Source of the DNA: Lentisphaerota bacterium
GTDB lineage: Bacteria; Verrucomicrobiota; Lentisphaeria; Victivallales; Victivallaceae
Assembly: GCA_015061495.1 (NCBI GenBank)
Contig: SUWL01000006.1
Location: 1 to 61,108, forward strand
Direction of reading: 5' to 3'
Length of the DNA stretch: 61,108 bases
Part shown: piece after piece, positions 4,618-51,456 of the stretch
Position numbering within the stretch: the stretch's first letter is position 1
Layout: each line of letters starts with the position of its first letter
Notes under the pieces: generated by a model
The model's input: the letters and a program-made list of their open reading frames with translations, nothing else
Told to the model about the DNA's origin: nothing
Database searches by the model: none
Position numbers and translations under genes: made by a program

Positions 4618-4644
4618 GGGCGCTTGGGGGGTGCAGGGGGGGCG

Positions 4645-4739
4645 GCGTGAGCGCCCCCCTGCAAAAGAAACGCCGGGAATGCATGCAAAGGCAGCGTGAG
4701 CGCCCCCCTGCAAAAGAAACGCCGGGAATGCATACAAAG
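4645..4739 (+). repeat. Repeat B, two tandem 46-bp copies
   Basis: Two copies (4645-4690 and 4694-4739, period 49) both begin GCGTGAGCGCCCCCCTGC and continue with AAAAGAAACGCC and a GGGAATGCAT segment. A third, diverged copy is on the other strand at 48748-48788. The pair ends 28 bp beyond the stop codon of the convergent SGNH gene. Confidence 0.85.
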
Positions 4740-4767
4740 GCGTAAGCTGCCGAGAGCCCAAAGACTG

Positions 4768-11404: not shown

Positions 11405-14400
11405 TCACACCAGCATGCCGCTGTTTTTATCTTCAAAGATCTTTTCGCTGGAGGCATCGAGAAAAACTCCATCCAAAGGAGCATCTCCGCCGAATTTGAG
11501 AGAAACTTCGGCTACACCTCTGACAGTTACGCTGTTGGTGCCGTCGGTGTAAGTAAGCGTATCTGCATCCCAGTTGTTTTCTGAACCGGATTCAAACCAG
11601 AGGGTGATTTCTCCGCCGTCAAGCTGTTCAACGGTATCATTGCCCCAGTTTTTACCGAAGCAGAAGATGTCACTTCCGCCGCCGCCGTGCATGGAATCAT
11701 TACCGATGCCGCCTGCGATCACATCGTTATTATCCCCACCAACAATGCGGTCGTTCCCGGCATCACCGAAGAGGGTATTATTGCCATTATTTGCCCAGAT
11801 GGTGTCATTACCGAGGCCGCCATAGATTTTGACTCCATCACCGACGTAAGCAAACTGCTGACTGGTCATATCCACAATATCATCGCCGAATCCGGCGCGG
11901 ATCTCATCAATTTGCGAAATCCGTGCGGCATCACTGCCGAAAGAAGTGTAAATATCATCCACAAACAGCGCATCGCCGTTGGCAGCATCGGTCAAAACCA
12001 GAATATTGGCATCACTTGAACCCTCAAATATATCGGAAAGTTTATTTTTACCGGCAAGGATCACCTGTTCTTCCGTGCCGGTCCAGCCGTTGATAACACC
12101 TTGATGTTCAGCGGCATAACCTGCTTCCCAAACTTCGCTGCCATTGGCAAAGAAGATATCCGGATTCCCATCCGCATCGGAAATATATTTCTGCGGGACA
12201 GCTGCATTGGCAGAAACGATATCGCTGCCGGAGGTAAATGATCCGCCGTCGGCTTTGACCTGCCACTGATAAGTTCCGGCAGGCAGGGAGAAAAAGTCTA
12301 TTCCGGCTGAATCAGTTTTCAAACTCAAAGTTCCGCCGTCGGAAATGACTTCGACCCGGTACCCGCCCACTCCGGCAATACTCTGCCACTTCAAACCGTC
12401 GGCACTGCCCTGCAGTTCTGTGACAACACCGGGAACTACTTCAAAGGTCTGAAGCGACGACCACTGCGAAATATTTCCGGCATTATCGACCGTCTGCACC
12501 TGATAACTGTATTTGCCGACCGCAAGAGCATTCAAAACGAATTCACTGGAGGAAATAAAACTGCCTTCTCCGGTCAGATTCCCGTCTGTTCCGTAACGGA
12601 TATAATAGCCTTTTACTCCGGCAACGCCGCTGTCAGCGGCATCTGCCCAATCCAGTTTGACATCGTAATTGGAAACTGCGGCGCTGAAGTTCCCGGGAAC
12701 TTCAGGCGCGATTTTGTCAATATTATCAACAACCATCTCACTGGTACTGCAGTTGCCCGCAGCATCAAATGCCCGGAAATAAACTGCGGTGTTTTCCGTA
12801 ACGGTGAATGCGCCGATGTACTTCTGCCATTCGCCGTCATCGAGCCGGTACTCTTTTACGATGCTGTCACTGCTGAATTCCGCCGTCACAATCACATCTT
12901 CCCCGGTCAATCCGGAAGTACTTGCCACAGCAGTTGGTGCTGTCGGAGCGACCTTGTCGATCATATCGACCGTAACCGATTTCTCCGTCACGTTGCCTGC
13001 CGCATCGGTGACGCGGAACAGGTAAGTTCCATTTTTACTGACGGTTAAACTTGAACCGGCGACCCATGCTGAACCGTTATAATATTCCACCGTACCGTCA
13101 CTGGCGGTTGCAGTCAAGACTACATCCTGATTTGTGGGTTTGGTCGCGTTGCCAGAAATCTCCAAAGTCGGCGCAACTTTATCTATCATATCGACTGTGA
13201 CAGATTTCTCGGTAATATTGCCAGCCGCATCTGTAACACGGAACTTGAAAGTTCCGTTTTCTGTTGCGATAATGGAGTTGCCTTTATTCCACTTACCATC
13301 GGCAAAATATTCAACTGTACCGTCACTGGCGGTGGCAGTCAACACTACATCCTGATTGGTCGGCACAGTTGCGTTACCTGAAATCTCAAGAGTCGGCGCG
13401 ACTTTATCTATCATATCGACTGTGACAGATTTCTCGGTAATATTGCCAGCCGCATCTGTAACACGGAATTTGAATGTTCCGTTTTCAGTTGCGATAATGG
13501 AGTTGCCTTTATTCCACTTGCCATCGGCAAAATATTCAACTGTACCATCACTGACCGTGGCGGTCAAAACCACATCCTGATTGGTTGGAGAGTCAACATT
13601 ACCGCTGATTTCCAACGTCGGAGCGATTTTGTCGATCATATCGACCGTAACCGATTTCTCCGTCACGTTGCCTGCCGCATCGGTCACGCGGAACTTATAA
13701 ATGCCGTTGGCTCTTGCGGTAATCGTATCTCCGGTAATCCATTTTTCACCGTCATAATACTCTACAGTTCCGTCACTGGCGGTGGCAGTCAAGATAACAT
13801 CCTTATTAGTCGGTGCTGTCGCATTACCGGAAATCTCCAAAGTCGGCGCAACTTTGTCGATCATGTCAACGGTGACGGATTCCTCGGTAACATTACCTGC
13901 CGCATCGGTCACGCGGAACTTATAAATGCCGTTGGCTCTTGCGGTAATCGTATCTCCGGTAATCCATTTTTCACCGTCATAATACTCTACAGTTCCGTCA
14001 CTGGCAGTGGCAGTCAAGACTACATCCTGATTTGTGGGTTTGGTCGCGTTGCCGGAAATCTCCAAAGTCGGCGCGACTTTATCTATCATATCGACTGTGA
14101 CAGATTTCTCGGTAATATTGCCAGCCGCATCAATAACACGGAATTTGAATGTTCCGTTTTCAGTTGCGATAATGGAGTTGCCTTTATTCCACTTGCCATC
14201 TGCAAAATATTCAATCGTACCCTCACTGGCGGTAGCAGTCAATACTACATCCTGATTGGTAGGTTCTGTTGCGTTACCAGAAATAGAAAGTGTCGGAGCT
14301 ACTTTGTCGATCATATCGACAACAACGGATTCTTCCGTAACATTACCCGCCGCATCAGCTACACGGAATTTGAATGTTCCGTTTTCAGTTGCGGTAATGG

Positions 14401-17400
14401 AATTACCTTTATTCCATTTGCCATTGGCAAAATATTCAATCGTACCATCACTGGCGGTAGCGGTCAAGACTACATCCTGATTGGTTGGAGAGTCAACATT
14501 GCCGCTGATTTCCAAAGTTGGAGCGACTTTGTCGATCATATCGACTGTGACAGATTTCTCGGTAATATTACCCGCCGCATCTGTAACACGGAATTTGAAT
14601 GTTCCGTTTTCAGTTGCGGTGATAGAATTACCTTCAATCCATTTTTCACCGTCATAATACTCTACAGTGCCGTCACTGGCGGTGGCTGTCAAGATAACAT
14701 CCTTATTAGTCGGTGCAGTCGCATTACCAGAAATCTCCAAAGTCGGCGCGACTTTATCTATCATATCGACTGTGACAGATTTCTCGGTAATATTACCTGC
14801 CGCATCAGTCACGCGGAACTTGTAAGTGCCGTTGGCAGTAACCGTCAAACTGCTGCCGGTATTCCACTTGCCGTTGGCGAAGTATTCCACCGTGCCGTCA
14901 CTGGCGGCGGCTGTCAAGATAACATCCTTATTAGTCGGTGCAGTCGCATTACCGGAAATTTCCAACGTCGGAGCAATTTTGTCGATATTATTGACCGCAA
15001 ACTCCGCAACTTCAGAAATATTGCCGGCTTTATCCACCGCGCGGAAATACAGTACGCCATTGTTTGCCATAACGATGGCAGCGGTATAAGTCAGCCAGGT
15101 ACTGCCGTCCAAACTGTACTGTTTGAGTTCGCTGTCCACCGGAAATTGTGCCGTAACCGTCACTTTGCCGGTCGTGGGCGCAAGGATATCGGCACTGACA
15201 GACGGCTTGGCAGGAGGTTCACGGTCGATCGAAGTTACATTGACCGAGGTATATTTACTTTCCAGACCGCTTTCCGGATCGACCGCCTTGAAGTAGTATA
15301 TGCCGTTGGCACTTGCGGTATAAGTGCCTTCAAAAAGTGTCCATTTCTGCAAATCTGCAGAACAATAGGTTTTCATACCCTCGCCGCTTTCAGCGGTCAA
15401 CGTGACCTCCTGTGCCGGAGTATCGGATACCGCAGAAATTTTCACTTGCGGCAAACTGCCGATACCGCCAACCGGAGCAAGATAGGTATGCGCCACATCA
15501 CTGATTTTCAAACTGTAGGAATTGACCTTACCGGAAGCAATATCTGCATTGCCCTGCACATAAAGATAATTGCCGTTGGCAATGGTAATTGTGTAACTGC
15601 CGTTATTTTCTGCGGCATGACGGACAACTTTGCCCTGCCGGTCATATTCACAGACACTCAAACCGCTGCCGCTGATGACCACATCGATCTCGTTGGAATA
15701 GACCGTATTGAGCTGATAGTAATCCGCATCTCCCTGATAAGTCACCAATCCGCCGTAATTTCCGGCACCGAGAACCGTTGCCTTATCCAGCGAACCATTG
15801 CCCTGCACACCAAGTTTGTTTCCGGAACGGCTGTAATCAAAATAATCACTGCCGCTGGTCCAATCTGCTTCAAAGGAAAGATCAAGCGTGGTCTCTGCAG
15901 TGGTGGAAACGATCAGGAAGTACTCATTAAGCACTCCGGCATTGCTGTGATCGATCCCGGCAAGCGACAGAATGCCATTTTCCGAAATCCGCCGGGTGAT
16001 CAATTCAACGCCTCCCAAAACCGGACGCTGCTGAACCAGAGTAAGAGAAACTTCCGCATCGGGATTGTCCGCAACTGCCCGGATCTGATCTCCGGCTGCC
16101 CCCTGACCGTCCAGAGTAATGGTGAAATACAATTCATCATCCAGATAGAGACCGTTGAAATCCACTCCATCCCCGTAAAATGTACCCAAATTGCAGTTCA
16201 CCTGAACTTCACCGTCGGCAAAACTGTAACTGAAATCAGTAAATGTCAACTGCGTACTGCCGTCAACAAAATATTCAGTACAATCCTCGGCAAGCTGTCC
16301 GACCGTGTAGAGGAATTGCCCCCATTCGCCCGAACCGATCTCCGTGCCGTAATAATCCAGATTCGCACCGGGACCGTAACTGTAGAAACTCATCAGATCA
16401 TTGGATAAAACCGGATTGAATACCGCAAATCCGGTGCCGTAACTGGCCGGTACGATCATCGTACTGTCAATGACCTGCTCAAGAACGACCGTGTAAAGTT
16501 TTTCAGCGGCATTAAGCAGCGCAGCGGAAATGCTTTCAGAATGCTGAATCGCATTGAGCAGAAATCCGAGGTCACTGCTGGCACAGATGCTGTCGCCGTA
16601 ATTGTATGCCAGCGCAAAACTTTTGCAGATTTCCACCCAGTCGGCCCGGGTAAATCCGGATGCCGCCCGGGCAAATTCATTAAGCGCACCGCTCAACGTT
16701 TTATCCGCCACATGGAACGAAGCCGAAGTCAGATCAACTCTGCCGGAACAGTTGCACGCTTTGACGATCTTTTGCGCCAATTCCTGCGCTGACATATCCG
16801 CTTCAAGAGAGTTGAAAAGCACCTTGTACATCACCAGCAAATTGGGCGTCCAGCCGATCGCTTCAGAAGCAACCACATAATCGATATTGCCCTCAAGGCT
16901 GGAAATCACCACATCATTACCCATTAAACACTGGTCAAATGCGACAACTTTCAACGCATCGTATTTGGCATCTGACAACAATTCGGCAATATCCTGCACC
17001 CGCATGATCGAACCGCTGGTCTCATCAGAACTGTTGAAACCCAGATTGGTACCGTGATCTTTCATTATCAGAGCATAATTATCGGCTTTACCGACTTTCA
17101 TACCCCAGTCAAGGAAGGCTCCCAAAGTGGCAGCATCACCGGTATCCCACTCCTTTTTATGTTCCAGATTGGAAGTATTCACGAAAATATCGCTATCCTC
17201 CCCGTCAAAGTAGAGCCACTGGACGGCAACTGCACTGCCGGGACTGTGAACGATTTTTCCGACTCTGGTATCGCTCCAGTTGCGTTCATCAACAGAATAG
17301 TCTCCGGAACGGTCCATCAGTACATACACTTCCACACCCTCGGGGATGATCGCCTGCTGCATCCAGAGAAGTTCCTGCAGATAAGAACCTTCCAGATTGT

Positions 17401-22671: not shown

Positions 22672-23676
22672 TTAAGCGAGCAGACCGTTTTTAAAGGAGT
22701 CACCGTCAAATTCACTCAACATGTCACCGGCGGCGGATGTTTCCGGGGCAGCGGCAAAAGCTTCGATGCCTGCCAGCAGATATTCATCCTCAATAAGGGG
22801 AACTGCCGGAGAGACTTCGAGCAGCAAAGAACCATCCTGCAGATCCAGAGCGATAACGGTGCCGTCACTGCCGGTGACAGTTTCGCCGACGTTGAATCCT
22901 TCAAAAACTTCGCCGTCCCATTCGAGCCGGACATCGTGGGCGAATGAATCGACCTTATCAGCCAGACGGTAAGTGCCTGCAGCTTGACCGGCACCGGCGG
23001 TAATGGTATATGCGAGGTTGCCTTTGATCAGCGAGAAGTCATTGATCAGAGCCGCGTTACCTGCGGCAAGAGAATCGATGGAAAAGTTGAAAGTACTGCC
23101 GGTAAAGGCGAGGACAGTCGCTCCGGCAGAGATGGTGAGAGTGCCGGAAACTTCCGCTCCGCTGCCGATATAGCAGTGACCGCCGGATTTGACGGTAAGA
23201 TCCGAAGCAATTGTACCGGAACAAAGCTGCATGATGCCCAGATTTTCCACGGAACCGCCGCTGACCATGCCGCCGCTGACGTAGGCGGCGCCTCGCTCTC
23301 TGACCGCAAGACCGGAAATCAGTGTTTCCGAAGTGGTCAGGAAAGCATTGGAGTTGACATAGACAGTTTCCAATACACCGTTATTCAAGGTTGCTTTGGC
23401 ACCGCTGACAAATTCCGTATTCCGGGCGATACCACCGGCAAAAATCATCAAACCGCCGGAGTGAAGCACCGTATTTTCTGCCACGCCGCCGCTGGAGATA
23501 GTCATACTGCCGAGAAAATTAACCGTAGTGCTGTTTGCCACACCGCCGCTGGAGATAGTCATTCTGCCGTGGGAATTGACCGTGGTGCGGTTTGCCACAC
23601 CGCCACTGACGATGGTCATTCCGCCGTTGACATTGACCGTAGTGCTGTTTGCCACACCGCCGCTGAAGATGGTCAT
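22672..23676 (-). CDS. C-terminal part of the C13/RTX/strand-loop-strand protein, separated by a stop codon
   Basis: This 334-codon frame begins with an ATG immediately after the TAA that ends the upstream frame, in the same reading phase. Its first residues (MTIFSGGVANSTTVNVNG) continue the 19-residue repeats without any break. The remainder is a strand-rich cap domain (about 150-300) and an acidic C-terminus ending FDGDSFKNGLLA. No ribosome site precedes the ATG. The simplest reading is that it is the C-terminal third of one protein split by a nonsense change; reinitiation at the TAA-ATG junction is possible but unproven. The next gene (C11 giant) starts 14 bp downstream. Confidence 0.75.
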   Translation of the reverse strand: MTIFSGGVANSTTVNVNGGMTIVSGGVANRTTVNSHGRMTISSGGVANSTTVNFLGSMTISSGGVAENTVLHSGGLMIFAGGIARNTEFVSGAKATLNNGVLETVYVNSNAFLTTSETLISGLAVRERGAAYVSGGMVSGGSVENLGIMQLCSGTIASDLTVKSGGHCYIGSGAEVSGTLTISAGATVLAFTGSTFNFSIDSLAAGNAALINDFSLIKGNLAYTITAGAGQAAGTYRLADKVDSFAHDVRLEWDGEVFEGFNVGETVTGSDGTVIALDLQDGSLLLEVSPAVPLIEDEYLLAGIEAFAAAPETSAAGDMLSEFDGDSFKNGLLA

Positions 23677-26000
23677 TTAGCCGTAGGAATTGACCGTGGT
23701 GCGGTTTGCCACACCGCCATTGGAAATACTCATACCGCCGCCGCCATTGACCGTGGTGCTGTTTGCCACACCGCCATTGGAGATGTACATGTTGCCGCCA
23801 TTGACCGTAGTGCTGTTTGCCACACCGCCGCTGGAGATAGTCATTCTGCCGGCGCTATTGACCGTGGTGCTGTCGGCAATGGTATTGGAGTGTACCGTCA
23901 TTGATGTGTCAATTGTCAATCCGCTGATAGTATTGGAAGCAAAGGTGACATTTGCACCATCGTTGATCTCAACATATCCGCCGTTTTCAACAATTTCGGT
24001 CGCCGTACCGCCGCTGGAGATGTGCATGTAGCCGCTGGAATTGACCGTGGTGCTGTTTGCCACACCGCCGCTGAAGATGGTCATACTGCCGCCGCGATTG
24101 ACCGTGGTGCTGTTTGCCACACCGCCGCTGGAGATGTGCATGTAGCCGCTGAAATTGACCGTAGTGCTGTTTGCCACACCGCCGGAGGAGATGGTCATAC
24201 TGCCGTGGGAATTGACCGTGGTGCTGTTTGCCACGCCGCCGCTGGAGATATCCATTCTGCCGAAGGAACTGACCGTGGTGCTGTCGGCAATGGTATTGGA
24301 GTGTACCGTCATTGATGTGTTAATTGTCAATCCGCTGATAGTATTGGAAGCAAAGGTGACATTTGCACCATCGTTGATCTCAACATATCCGCCGTTTTCA
24401 ACAATTTCGGTCGCCGTACCGCCGGAGGAGATGGTCATACTGCCGCCGCGATTGACCGTGGTGCTGTTTGCCACACCGCCATTGGAAATACGCATACCGC
24501 CGTAGAAATTGACCGTGGTGCTGTTTGCCACACCGCCATTGGAAATGTACATTTTGCCATCGCGATTGACCGTGGTGCTGTTTGCCACACCGCCATTGGA
24601 GATAGTCATACTGCCGCGGGAATTGACCGTGGTGCTGTTTGCCACACCGCCGCTGGAGATAGTCATTCCGCCGTTGACATTGACCGTAGTGCTGTTTGCC
24701 ACACCGCCACTGGAGATATCCATTCTGCCGGCGCTATTGACCGTAGTGCTGTCGGCAATGGTATTGGAGTGTACCGTCATTAAACGGTAAATTGTCAATC
24801 CGCTGATAGTATTGGAAGCAAAGGTGACATTTGCACCATCGTTGATCTCAACATATCCGCCGTTTTCAACAATTTCGGTCGCCGTACCGCCATTGTAGAT
24901 GTACATGGCGCAGCCGCTATTGACCGTGGTGCTGTTTGCCACGCCGCCATTGTAGATGTACATAAAGCCGCTATTGAACGTAGTGCTGTTTACCACACCG
25001 CCATTGGAGATGTGCATAAGGCCGCTATTGACCGTAGTGCTGTTTGCCACACCGCCATTGTAGATGTACATATTGCCGCCGCTATTGACCGTAGTGCTGT
25101 TTGCCACGCCGCCGCTGGAGATAGTCATACTGCCGCGGGAATTGACCGTGGTGCTGTTTGCCACACCGCCATTGAAGATGTACATATTGCCGCCGCCATT
25201 GACCGTAGTGCTGTTTGCAACACCGCCATTGGAAATGTACATAACGCCGATATTATTAACCGTGGTGCTGTTTGCAACACCGCCATTGGAAATGTACATA
25301 ACGCCGCTGTAATTAACCGTGGTGCTGTTTGCAATGGTATTGGAGTGTACCGTCATTGCTGTGTTAATTGTCAATCCGCTGATAGTATTGGAAGCAAAGG
25401 TGACATTTGCACCATCGTTGATCTCAACATATCCGCCGTTTTCAACAATTTCGGTTGCCGTACCGCCGGAGGCGATGGTCATTCTGCCGCCGTAATTAAC
25501 CGTGGTGCTGTTTGCCACACCGTCATTGCGGATGTACATTTTGCCGTCGCGATTGACCGTGGTGCTGTTTGCCACACCGCCATTGGAGATGTTCATATTG
25601 CCGTAGGTATTGACCGTGGTGCTGTTTGCCACACCGCCATTGGAGATGTGCATAAGACCGCCGCTATTGAACGTAGTGCTGTTTGCCACGCCGCCGCTGG
25701 AGATGTACATAAAGCCGTGGGAATTGAACGTAGTGCTGTTTGCCACACCGCCGCTGGAGATGATCATGTCGCCGCCGCCATTGAACGTAGTGCTGTTTGC
25801 CACGCCGCCACTGACGATGGTCATTCTGCCGCCGCTATTGACCGTGGTGCTGTTTGCCACGCCGCCGCTGGAGATAGTCATACTGCCGTAGGAATTGACC
25901 GTGGTGCTGTTTGCCACGCCGCCGCTGGAGATAGTCATACTGCCGTTGGAATTGACCGTGGTGCTGTTTGCCACACCGCCGCTGGAAACATTCATGATGC
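23470..26000 (-). repeat. 57-bp strand-loop-strand (AIDA-type) repeats, about 40-50 units
   Basis: The 19-residue unit GGVANSTTVNSxGxMxISS is repeated across 2.5 kb. It is interrupted by four copies of a longer block (GGTATEIVENGGYVEIND, then NVTFASNTISGLTI and MTVHSNTIADSTTV), so the repeats are hierarchical. The pattern matches autotransporter passenger strand-loop-strand repeats. It is coding, not a CRISPR array. Confidence 0.92.
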
Positions 26001-48033: not shown

Positions 48034-48107
48034 AGACCTGTGGTGTAACGGTAGCACAAGTGATTCTGGTTCACTTTGTTGAGGTTCGAATCCTTACAGG
48101 TCTGCCA
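48034..48107 (+). tRNA. trnQ: tRNA-Gln (anticodon CUG), CCA encoded
   Basis: The acceptor stem AGACCTG pairs with CAGGTCT, followed by G73 and an encoded CCA. The D stem is GTGT/GCAC with loop AACGGTA. The anticodon stem is AGTGA/TCACT with the 7-nt loop TTCTGGT, giving anticodon CTG. The T arm is TGAGG/CCTTA with loop TTCGAAT. All parts have standard sizes. The anticodon reads CAG, hence glutamine. A TTTTCTTTTT stretch follows directly. Its 3' portion recurs four times downstream. Confidence 0.95.
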
Positions 48108-48217
48108 TTTTCTTTTTAAACCTCTGTTGCCTGCCCTCCGGATAATCCTGAATAATATTTCCGTCGTCATTTCCGAAAACAAGTTTTCTCCATGACTCCG
48201 GCAAATATTATTCTTCA

Positions 48218-48237
48218 ACAACGTTTGTCAACGTTGT
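48218..48237. repeat. Short palindrome before the tRNA-derived array
   Basis: ACAACGTT and AACGTTGT are perfect inverted arms around TGTC, 18 bp upstream of the first array unit. Confidence 0.6.
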
Positions 48238-48254
48238 CAGGATTCTCCGGTGGA

Positions 48255-48684
48255 GAGGTTGCCTTCGCTACGCTCAGGCTCGTTCGGGCTGCGCCCTCCG
48301 TCGAATCCTTACAGCTCTGCCATTTTTTTACCATGTCACGTGAGTAATCGCTATTTAGAGGTTGCCTTCACTTACGTTCAGGCTCGTTCGGGCTGCGCCC
48401 TCCGTCGAATCCTTGACTGTCTGCCATTTTTTTACTTTTTGCTTTGTTCATTTTTGCGCTCGCAAAAATGGGATTACTCACTTTTCCGAGGTTGCCGTCG
48501 CTTACGCTCCGGCTCGTCGGGCTGCGCCCTCCGTCGAATCCTTACAGGTCTGCCATTTTTTTACTTTTTGCTTTGTTCATTTTTGCGTTTGCAAAAACGG
48601 GATTACTCACTATTCAGAGGTTGCCTTCACTTACGTTCAGGCTCGTCGGGCTGCGCCATCCGTCGAATCCTTGACTGTCTGCCA
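48255..48684 (+). repeat. Array of four tRNA-Gln 3'-end copies, each with a T-loop insertion
   Basis: Units lie at 48255-48322, 48358-48426, 48488-48555 and 48617-48684. Each starts GAGGTT, as in the tRNA T arm, then has a GC-rich insert of 40-42 nt (contains GGGCTGCGCCC), then resumes CGAATCCTT and ends TCTGCCATTTTTTT. Units 1 and 3 end like the tRNA (ACAGGTCTGCCA, with one change in unit 1), whereas units 2 and 4 end GACTGTCTGCCA. Spacers after units 2 and 3 are nearly identical and carry a hairpin (CATTTTTGCG/CGCAAAAATG). No complete second tRNA is present. Open frames across it show no recognisable protein. Confidence 0.85.
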
Positions 48685-48747
48685 TTTTTTTGCCTCTTCG
48701 ACGGTTTATGACAGAAATTCATAATGATTTTCATCTGCCCCGTCCGC

Positions 48748-48788
48748 TTGCATTTACGGCGTCTCTTTTGCAGGGGGACGCTCACGCC
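48748..48788 (-). repeat. Repeat B, third copy
   Basis: On the minus strand it reads GGCGTGAGCGTCCCCCTGC, then AAAAGAGACGCC and a TAAATGCAA ending, matching 4645-4739 with a few changes. It lies just beyond the terminator of the glutamate dehydrogenase gene. Confidence 0.8.
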
Positions 48789-48797
48789 GTCCCCATG

Positions 48798-48834
48798 CAA
48801 AAAAACAGGCTGCTGCAAAAATTTTGCAGCAGCC
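48798..48834 (-). terminator. Terminator of the glutamate dehydrogenase gene
   Basis: A 13-bp stem GGCTGCTGCAAAA/TTTTGCAGCAGCC (48808-48834) is followed on the minus strand by TGTTTTTTT. Confidence 0.92.
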
Positions 48835-51263: not shown

Positions 51264-51427
51264 GTTAATTCCGGACTTTTAGCAAAACTTTTTTCGCTTA
51301 AACTGCGATTCTGGCACGGTTTTTTGGTTTTGAAAAAATACGAAAAAATATTTTTTTATTTTCAGGAATTTTTCTTTATTTCCATCTGCCGTTTCCGGAA
51401 ACTGCAGTTCACCGCGCAGATGCAAAC

Positions 51428-51456
51428 TTGAAAAAAGCGGTATTTGGCAATATATT
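51428..51456 (+). promoter_or_regulatory. Promoter of the LysM-accA gene run
   Basis: TTGAAA (51428-51433) is 17 bp from TATATT (51451-51456), giving a leader of about 37 nt. Confidence 0.75.

Follow-up and report, generated by a model that had tools for sequence, protein, structure and literature searches.

The locus described here raises the question of why a tRNA gene should be followed by four tandem copies of its own 3' end, each interrupted at the same place in the T loop. It lies in a window of 61,108 nucleotides (the whole stretch of DNA that was analysed) from the genome of a Lentisphaerota bacterium, referred to below as the source genome. A single tRNA gene, tRNA-Gln(CTG), was identified in the whole window, with ARAGORN and Rfam in agreement. 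On its 3' side four units follow, each composed of GAGGTT, a GC-rich hairpin insert, the stretch CGAATCC...CCA and a T-run (Table 1). A sequence-only reading of this DNA had described a tRNA-Gln with four copies of its tail, inserts placed exactly between TT and CGAAT, and tails alternating between units 1/3 and units 2/4. All of this was borne out: besides the tRNA call, the 21-nt tail recurs at the four sites with 1, 4, 0 and 4 mismatches, respectively, GAGGTT directly precedes every insert, and the inserts measure 41, 42, 41 and 41 nt. Outside the units, only three sites on either strand of the window (34937, 40212 and 49653) come within six mismatches of the tail, with five or six each.

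Counted from the tail of the tRNA itself, the tail-to-tail spacing is 215, 104, 129 and 129 nt. The tails of units 1 and 3 are characterized by ACAGSTCTGCCA and those of units 2 and 4 by GACTGTCTGCCA; the latter variant is not the tail of the other glutamine tRNA gene seen in the source genome. It had also been proposed that a block of two units was duplicated. Such alternation holds for tails and inserts but not for spacers. The only complete spacer is that of unit 1; those of units 3 and 4 are near-identical to each other, truncated to 61 nt and of another type, and unit 2 retains only 35 nt. The shortened spacers of units 2-4 differ in sequence type from that of unit 1, and two unrelated spacer types are found within one array.

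Table 1. Features of the tRNA-Gln array (window coordinates) and integrase genes near other tRNAs and arrays
Feature	Position	Strand	Basis or remark
Intact tRNA-Gln(CTG), host of the array	48034..48107	+	ARAGORN, Rfam
Unit 1, complete, 215 nt	48108..48322	+	
Unit 1, P1 5' strand (11 pairs with one mismatch)	48138..48149	+	Fold of 48108-48254; partner 48239-48250
Unit 1 spacer, long hairpin P2	48150..48213	+	Fold of 48108-48254
Unit 1 spacer, hairpin P3	48218..48237	+	Fold of 48108-48254
Unit 1, P1 3' strand	48239..48250	+	Fold of 48108-48254
Unit 1, GAGGTT, copy of tRNA positions ~50-55, P4 5' strand	48255..48260	+	
Unit 1 insert, 41 nt, hairpins P5 and P6 inside the T loop	48261..48301	+	Structure taken from relatives
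Unit 1 tail, copy of tRNA positions 56-76 to CCA	48302..48322	+	1 mismatch
Unit 2, spacer only 35 nt	48323..48426	+	GAGGTT 48358-48363, insert 48364-48405, tail 48406-48426
Unit 3, 61-nt spacer reduced to a P3-like hairpin and the 3' strand of P1	48427..48555	+	
Unit 3, parts	GAGGTT 48488-48493; insert 48494-48534; tail 48535-48555	+	Tail identical to the tRNA
Unit 4, spacer as in unit 3	48556..48684	+	GAGGTT 48617-48622, insert 48623-48663, tail 48664-48684
T-run, then the beginning of the 3' flank (a further dispersed genomic repeat, CGACGGTTTATGACAG...)	48685..48732	+	
Phage-type tyrosine integrase genes behind source tRNA-Ser-gct and tRNA-Glu-ctc and behind relatives' arrays	L296:832-2157; L295:1346-2527; L033		

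The flank behind the array holds repeats of its own. At 48699-48732 the dispersed repeat CGACGGTTTRTGACAG...ATAATGATTTTC is present, which occurs at 13 places in the source genome at up to three mismatches as compared to none for the reversed pattern. By eye, similar flank starts are seen after the Gly and Cys arrays, and a 49-nt tandem repeat at 4641-4741 looks like the reverse complement of about 48745-48798 after the array. Long tandem repeats are found elsewhere in the window, with repeat lengths of 225 nt (13081-14986) and 57 nt (23479-25986).

Rfam models detected nothing but tRNA above the cut-off, neither in the window at gathering score nor in the array and nine relatives at relaxed E-values. 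The distribution of the units was followed with searches of three kinds. A DNA search of 60 genomes including the source genome gave matches in 23, all of them of the same genus. Scanning a collection of genome contigs with a pattern for the first hairpin of the insert returned 57 stretches; 15 came from other bacteria and 42 from Lentisphaeria, several of the latter from assemblies whose titles name the gut of sheep, yak or roe deer. Of the 60 matches in the Lentisphaeria stretches, 52 had a tRNA gene no more than 700 nt upstream, against none of the 15 matches in the other bacteria. The eight exceptions comprise four matches in L086, where the array runs off the contig end, two in L119 at most 2.1 kb from a contig end, and two in L093, which are the distal part of a Gln array read in L094. 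Finally, the covariance model R1, built from 27 units of other loci and used with a match cut-off of E 0.01, scored the four units of the window at 66.7-82.4 bits and matched 30 of 34 genomes of the genus and 47 of 137 genomes of the order. Of these 47, 15 are members of the family but not of the genus, and most of them show one or two weak matches; two lie outside the family with weak single matches (G068, from another family of the order, E 2.2e-5; G040, E 0.005). The four genomes of the genus that gave no R1 match are 71-87% complete. In a draw of 387 genomes from the phylum, 22 matched at 1e-4, all from one family and three genera.

The tRNAs serving as hosts are those for Gln, Thr, Leu, Glu, Tyr, Arg, Ser, Pro, Asp, Gly and Cys as well as, in a changed form, His. 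At least 15 anticodon kinds are represented, and nearly every copy whose context was examined adjoins a tRNA 3' end. About 6 of the 37 tRNA genes of the source genome carry clear units: Gln (4), Leu-taa (4), Gly (3), Arg (3), Glu-ttc (1) and Cys (1 and a degraded one). Degraded units are present at Phe and His, and some tRNAs stand at contig ends where their flanks are unreadable. The array in the window thus belongs to a genus-wide, family-reaching set of structured, tRNA-linked repeats that is larger than one locus. A literature search, whose reach stopped short of the original papers on the E. coli RtT repeats and of most subscription papers, returned no description of these repeats.

The anatomy of the units was analyzed in a de-duplicated, match-enriched set of 99 tRNA loci, each with 250 nt or more of sequence behind it. 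Units were found at 52 of these loci, 93 in all (89 unique), behind tRNAs of 15 anticodon kinds. A looser census flagged 57 of 90 tRNA loci, at least three of which were judged spurious (Lys-ctt L167, Thr-tgt L030, Gln-ctg L132); neither ratio is a prevalence, since the loci were fetched largely because they matched. A full unit spans about 190-230 nt, with 67 of the 89 unique units being 187-231 nt long. Its parts follow in a constant order, namely a spacer folding into a three-way junction (closing stem P1, long hairpin P2 and hairpin P3), tRNA positions ~50-55, the insert with hairpins P5 and P6, and tRNA positions 56-76. The first GGTT lies 126-157 nt from the end of the tRNA in 45 of 52 arrays. 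Position 51 is identical to the host tRNA in 83 of the 89 units, position 50 in 64 and position 49 in only 12. Identity thus falls off between 51 and 49, which places the beginning of the tRNA copy at about position 50; after the insert it resumes at 56 and continues to the CCA.

Both halves of the unit were examined by folding and for covariation. P1-P3 is far more stable than its shuffles (mean z -6.7 for 41 non-redundant units, with P1 closing in 36 of them). In 19 aligned spacers, P1-P3 covariation amounts to 0.353 as compared to 0.146 after shuffling and at most 0.096 in slid controls, 89.1% of the pair cells are standard, and 25 of 43 pairs show double changes. For P4-P6, covariation is 0.412 versus 0.127 in the control, the variation in P4 being inherited from the tRNAs. 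Because both structures were derived from these same sequences, comparison with the slid controls favours them to some extent. P5, an irregular hairpin (GCCK...MGGC), follows GGTT immediately. In the 60 of 89 units with its regular form the fourth pair is TA (31), GC (24), TC (4) or CA (1), and another pair is GC (38) or AT (22). GGTT is invariant in 27 aligned units, which had themselves been collected by GGTTG. In contrast to P1-P3, the region from P4 to the tail is no more stable than its shuffles (mean z +0.16). Two weak matches to a P1-P3 model were also noted in the window. One (33.6 bits, 48339-48480), which also corresponds to an inverted repeat, joins the P1 5' strand before unit 2 to the P1 3' strand before unit 3, with the insert and tail of unit 2 in the place expected of P2. 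The other (51318-51434, 23.8 bits, E 0.004) lies away from any tRNA.

These folds bear on the possibility that the units are parts of a conserved tRNA trailer RNA. They would then be transcribed together with the tRNA, P1-P3 and P4-P6 would control termination or 3' processing, the tails would act as spare CCA ends or decoys, and the repeats would expand by slippage. The stability of P1-P3 and the covariation of both structures are as such a role would have it, a T-run follows the preceding CCA in 54 of 71 units, and the RtT repeats of E. coli are annotated as RNA (RttR). The lack of excess stability from P4 to the tail speaks against it, as do terminator-like hairpins that are only modestly enriched (9 of 71 units versus 1-2 in shuffles) and an acceptor copy for which no partner is visible inside most units. 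As to P2 as an intrinsic terminator, crude scans found no site inside the array of the window and sites at chance level over the region. Selection for pairing in P4 as the cause of the T-stem copy is likewise unsupported, since bases that differ from the host tRNA pair at about the chance rate at positions 49 (30/77) and 50 (9/25), arguing that this segment was copied and not kept for pairing. Moreover, the small share of source tRNA genes with clear units and the four genomes of the genus that lack an R1 match mark the units as dispensable for tRNA making in general. We therefore consider a trailer RNA rather unlikely, while treating it as a live rival.

The tails follow their hosts closely. 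Acceptor positions 66-73 are identical to the host tRNA at all eight positions in 58 of the 89 unique units, and the tail is closer to the host than to the tRNA of any other amino acid in the set in 69 units, with the reverse in 12 and ties in 8. The earlier idea of a tRNA-targeting repeat element held up as far as tRNA linkage and the match between tail and host are concerned. A decayed tandem tRNA array, which had been offered as another possibility, is not supported as the general case, because the copy starts repeatedly at about position 50. At tRNA-Pro(CGG), and partly at tRNA-His, the copy is nevertheless that of nearly the whole tRNA. At tRNA-Pro(CGG) of G028, G004 and G032 the second copy spans positions ~2-76, and the insert follows the 5' acceptor strand after position ~7. 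Thus, the general rule is a few tRNA bases, an insert and the rest of the tRNA, with the split usually, not always, in the T loop. A separate scan of the 99-loci set yielded a single uninterrupted T-arm copy, at tRNA-His, with its hairpin elsewhere. Other departures include tRNA-Gly(gcc) of G029, where one full unit is followed by six more copies of P4-P6, mostly with an 82-nt period, and P1-P3-like spacers without a recognisable tail in L283, L289 and L292 (by eye). Of 20 stretches fetched for their P1-P3 matches, 18 hold a tRNA gene and two do not. In L119 (1-2200, near the contig end, with tails of the tRNA-Arg(CCG) type), a 560-amino-acid frame lies between the end of one unit and a second, partial unit, as if it were cargo caught between unit copies.

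Orthologous sites differ in the presence and in the number of units. Behind the source tRNA-Thr(CGT), neither unit nor tail copy is present within 1,497 nt. From base 2 onwards, the sequence behind this tRNA can be aligned (89% over 191 nt) with that following the last tail in L091, a locus that also contains a degraded first unit. Similarly, no unit follows the source tRNA-Pro(TGG). Here alignment starts at base 1 of the flank, its counterpart in L128 being the sequence behind the first of two tails (86.6% over 179 nt). About 0.5 kb downstream of this tRNA lie 26 nt that open with its final 11 bases and are shared with the second tail of L128; with this remnant, the site has a history and is not a virgin one. 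Leu-taa is followed by three units in G020 and by one on a 3-kb contig of G127, with flanks that are similar by eye. Additional information comes from tRNA-Pro(TGG) of G007, which has TTCAAAT, found otherwise only in G002 among the genomes compared. Its two downstream tails keep CGACT, as do 10 other genomes of the genus. This is as expected of a displaced original end, in one case. A general rule that the last tail is the best kept was unsupported when tested (edit distance of at most 1 in 14 of 25 last tails versus 28 of 41 others).

For each of 77 spacers, the closest relative was sought beyond the array to which the spacer itself belongs. It lies at the same tRNA of another genome in 48 cases, at a tRNA of another amino acid in another genome in 17, in the same genome in 7 and in another genome at a tRNA of the same amino acid in 3, with none found for 2. 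Six of the seven same-genome pairs join isoacceptors (Ser-cga/gga; Glu-ttc/ctc in two genomes). These counts argue for lineages that generally stay with one tRNA; where they jump, it is mainly between similar tails and more rarely to new ones. The 48 relatives at the same tRNA indicate that much of the pattern is old and vertical.

Much of this could also result from tandem duplication only, that is, a structured trailer and part of a tRNA that were duplicated long ago and then spread by unequal crossing-over and gene conversion, with no site-specific recombinase involved. The predominance of relatives at the same tRNA, the difference in copy number at Leu-taa, the repeats of mostly 82 nt at the Gly-gcc locus of G029 and foreign DNA that was co-duplicated in the Thr array of L129 are all what duplication would produce. 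It accounts less well for alignable spacers behind tRNAs of other amino acids, as in the 17 cases above, or for the two unrelated spacer types in one Gln array, and homologous recombination alone does not move a unit to a new tRNA and re-tail it. Duplication as the whole explanation, the second live rival, thus appears unlikely.

We lean, tentatively and with somewhat less than even confidence, towards a different explanation, in which the units are miniature integrative elements, non-coding and specific for a tRNA, or attachment-site repeats left by such elements. It is favoured because the duplicated block, from the T-stem 5' strand to the CCA (positions ~50-76), resembles the kind of attachment core used by tyrosine integrases of the T-loop class and is split in that very loop. 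Such a core copy would let a unit sit behind the tRNA while the complete tRNA is kept. The insert with P5 and P6 would occupy the presumed crossover loop, and the three-way junction P1-P3 would form the body. From this coincidence of cores we infer an integrase mechanism, in which some recombinase moved the units. The mover may have been a T-loop integrase acting in trans, and P4-P6 may represent its site, perhaps folded as a single strand. Recombination among the repeated tails would subsequently lengthen or shorten the arrays. The tRNA linkage, the match of the tails, the start at about position 50, the presence or absence of units at orthologous sites, the spread between isoacceptors of the same genome, the Pro tails of G007 and integrase genes adjoining arrays argue for miniature elements.

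As to these genes, tyrosine recombinases are encoded in 33 of the 34 genomes of the genus, with or without arrays, so that their presence points to no particular enzyme. In the source genome, integrase genes start about 110 nt 3' of the intact tRNA-Ser-gct and tRNA-Glu-ctc. Among relatives, a phage-type integrase gene of G007 starts behind the tail of a unit at tRNA-Glu-ttc, the last tail of its array; in G011 an integrase gene starts behind the last tail of the Ser-tga array (first 19 codons before the contig end), and in G033 behind an array whose tRNA is off the contig (first 56 residues). Four recombinases were scanned, three of the four of the source genome and one of G007. Two of the source genome are Xer-like, while its third and that of G007 are phage-type. 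With regard to a possible integron cassette array, no integron integrase was identified among these four, none of which reaches the cut-off of TIGR02249 or NF011946. Both Xer-like proteins pass NF040815 (XerA; described as tyrosine recombinase/integron integrase), and one passes XerD. No integrase gene was found inside any unit, and the 67 units of 187-231 nt are too short for one.

Several observations count against miniature elements. Since the insert interrupts the supposed crossover loop, it should disable an ordinary attachment site. One architecture at 15 or more kinds of tRNA needs repeated change of the core, and the insert after position ~7 of tRNA-Pro(CGG) lies outside a T-loop core. 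Presence and absence could also arise by deletion between tails, the last tails are not better kept, contrary to a simple rule that the original end is the last, and the predominance of nearest relatives at the same tRNA leaves much of the pattern old and vertical.

The position of the split and the neighbouring integrase genes also allow the roles to be reversed. The units could be decoy attachment sites kept by the host, whose split T-arm cores would draw off or block the T-loop integrases of phages and islands. The arrays of G007 and G011 stand between a tRNA and an integrase gene, the split falls at the presumed crossover loop, and the copies are graded in their likeness to the real tRNA end. 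Nothing shows, however, that an island integrated at a unit rather than the units arising after the island, and the units are patchy by tRNA and by genome. Of all the explanations considered, we give decoys the least credence and regard them as most improbable.

P5 recalls yet another system. The REP/BIME sequences with their RAYT transposases combine an irregular, covarying hairpin with a fixed tetranucleotide, GTAG, beside it, in dispersed non-coding copies. By analogy, a Y1 transposase (RAYT/IS200-type) might have inserted a pair of small hairpins behind the GGTT of partial tRNA copies. P5 is irregular and follows GGTT directly, little or no target duplication is seen by eye, and its fourth pair varies as described above. 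The Lentisphaeria units differ from REP sequences in being seen behind tRNAs only, where the motif was found in the scanned Lentisphaeria stretches, and in having GGTT and not GTAG. Y1 genes are present in 9 of the 34 genomes, one each and several of them fragmentary. Their occurrence does not follow that of the arrays, and genomes rich in arrays, for example G011, G014, G020 and G021, have none. The precursors that such insertion would leave, insert-free partial tRNA copies, are nearly absent, the one at tRNA-His excepted. An origin of this kind is therefore highly improbable.

Islands and CIMEs of T-loop (class II) tyrosine integrases are closer in layout. When an island integrates at a tRNA gene, the tRNA is restored and a displaced fragment stays behind (PMC4383910, PMC9897764), and decayed elements of this kind accrete in tandem (PMC5704250). 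The Lentisphaeria units share with them, as described in these sources and in PMC1762012, the complete tRNA with a displaced 3' fragment, a core reaching from the T stem towards the CCA, and the tandem accretion. An intact tRNA with a displaced 3' fragment was found in the arrays collected, and empty sites were found at Thr and Pro, the latter keeping its short distal remnant. An uninterrupted attachment core was not: the insert splits the core in all units collected, which had been collected by that feature, and the separate scan added the one copy at tRNA-His. Unlike islands and CIMEs, the Lentisphaeria units measure about 0.2 kb, are non-coding, lack an integrase and occur in up to seven copies per array, and they possess a hairpin insert in the core as well as a fixed structured body.

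The sequence-only reading knew of no named element built in this way, which does not quite hold. For comparison, the RtT repeats (RttR, Rfam RF00391) around tyrT and tyrV of E. coli, for which a processed RNA product is known, were examined by Rfam model, annotation and sequence. Rfam gave four RtT matches around tyrV and tyrT, the E. coli copies scoring 132.9-137.5 bits. At tyrV, three 178-nt units each have as their last part 19 nt of the tRNA 3' end to the CCA. They contain the T-arm stretch AAGGTTCGA (two units) or AAGGTTCG (one unit), followed by about 67 nt that are rich in hairpins and then by AATCC...CCA. A 9-nt match to the T-arm stretch of tRNA-Tyr was reached in 0.475% of composition shuffles of RtT unit 1, in a post hoc test. 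RtT of E. coli tyrT/tyrV has the same split-T-arm design, with the T arm split in the T loop. This trait is our own observation and not part of the published definition of RtT; no statement of it was found in a literature search that did not extend to the original RtT papers. In Salmonella Paratyphi A the rtT copy number is described as varying, with a 175-bp VNTR (PMC2658671).

RtT repeats and the Lentisphaeria units are alike in being tandem, in standing directly behind a tRNA, in ending in the tRNA 3' end and in having the 5' part of the T arm parted from that end by a hairpin stretch. The two sets differ in that RtT is confined to one tRNA locus, contains the small ORF tpr and lacks a P1-P3 spacer, whereas the Lentisphaeria units occupy many tRNAs and have P1-P3. 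The RtT split also falls about three bases later, and insert size and sequence differ. The models do not bridge the two sets: the RtT model had no match in the array of the window (E up to 10) or in nine array loci (E up to 5), and neither R1 nor R2 matched within RtT units better than E 1, the two weak matches of R1 being tRNA-Tyr ends.

It is tempting to see both as independent members of a general bacterial class of tRNA-borne mini-elements that would copy the host's T-loop integrase core, carry a hairpin pair in the crossover loop, use P4 and P5/P6 as a folded single-strand recombination site and be re-tailed for each tRNA. We regard so wide a class as doubtful. What had been one old curiosity behind tyrT of E. 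coli is nevertheless extended to a genus-wide system colonising many tRNA genes, in which natural replicates number in the dozens and unit-bearing orthologous sites can be compared with unit-free ones. It becomes testable whether split T-arm repeats move, regulate or protect, and in what way DNA elements that have no gene of their own may live on tRNA ends. Programs that find tRNAs and islands should be used with some caution at such loci, since unit tails may be read as tRNA fragments or island ends. Among the repeats known to be made from tRNA ends, those of the RtT type are the ones that the Lentisphaeria set joins, as a distinct form.
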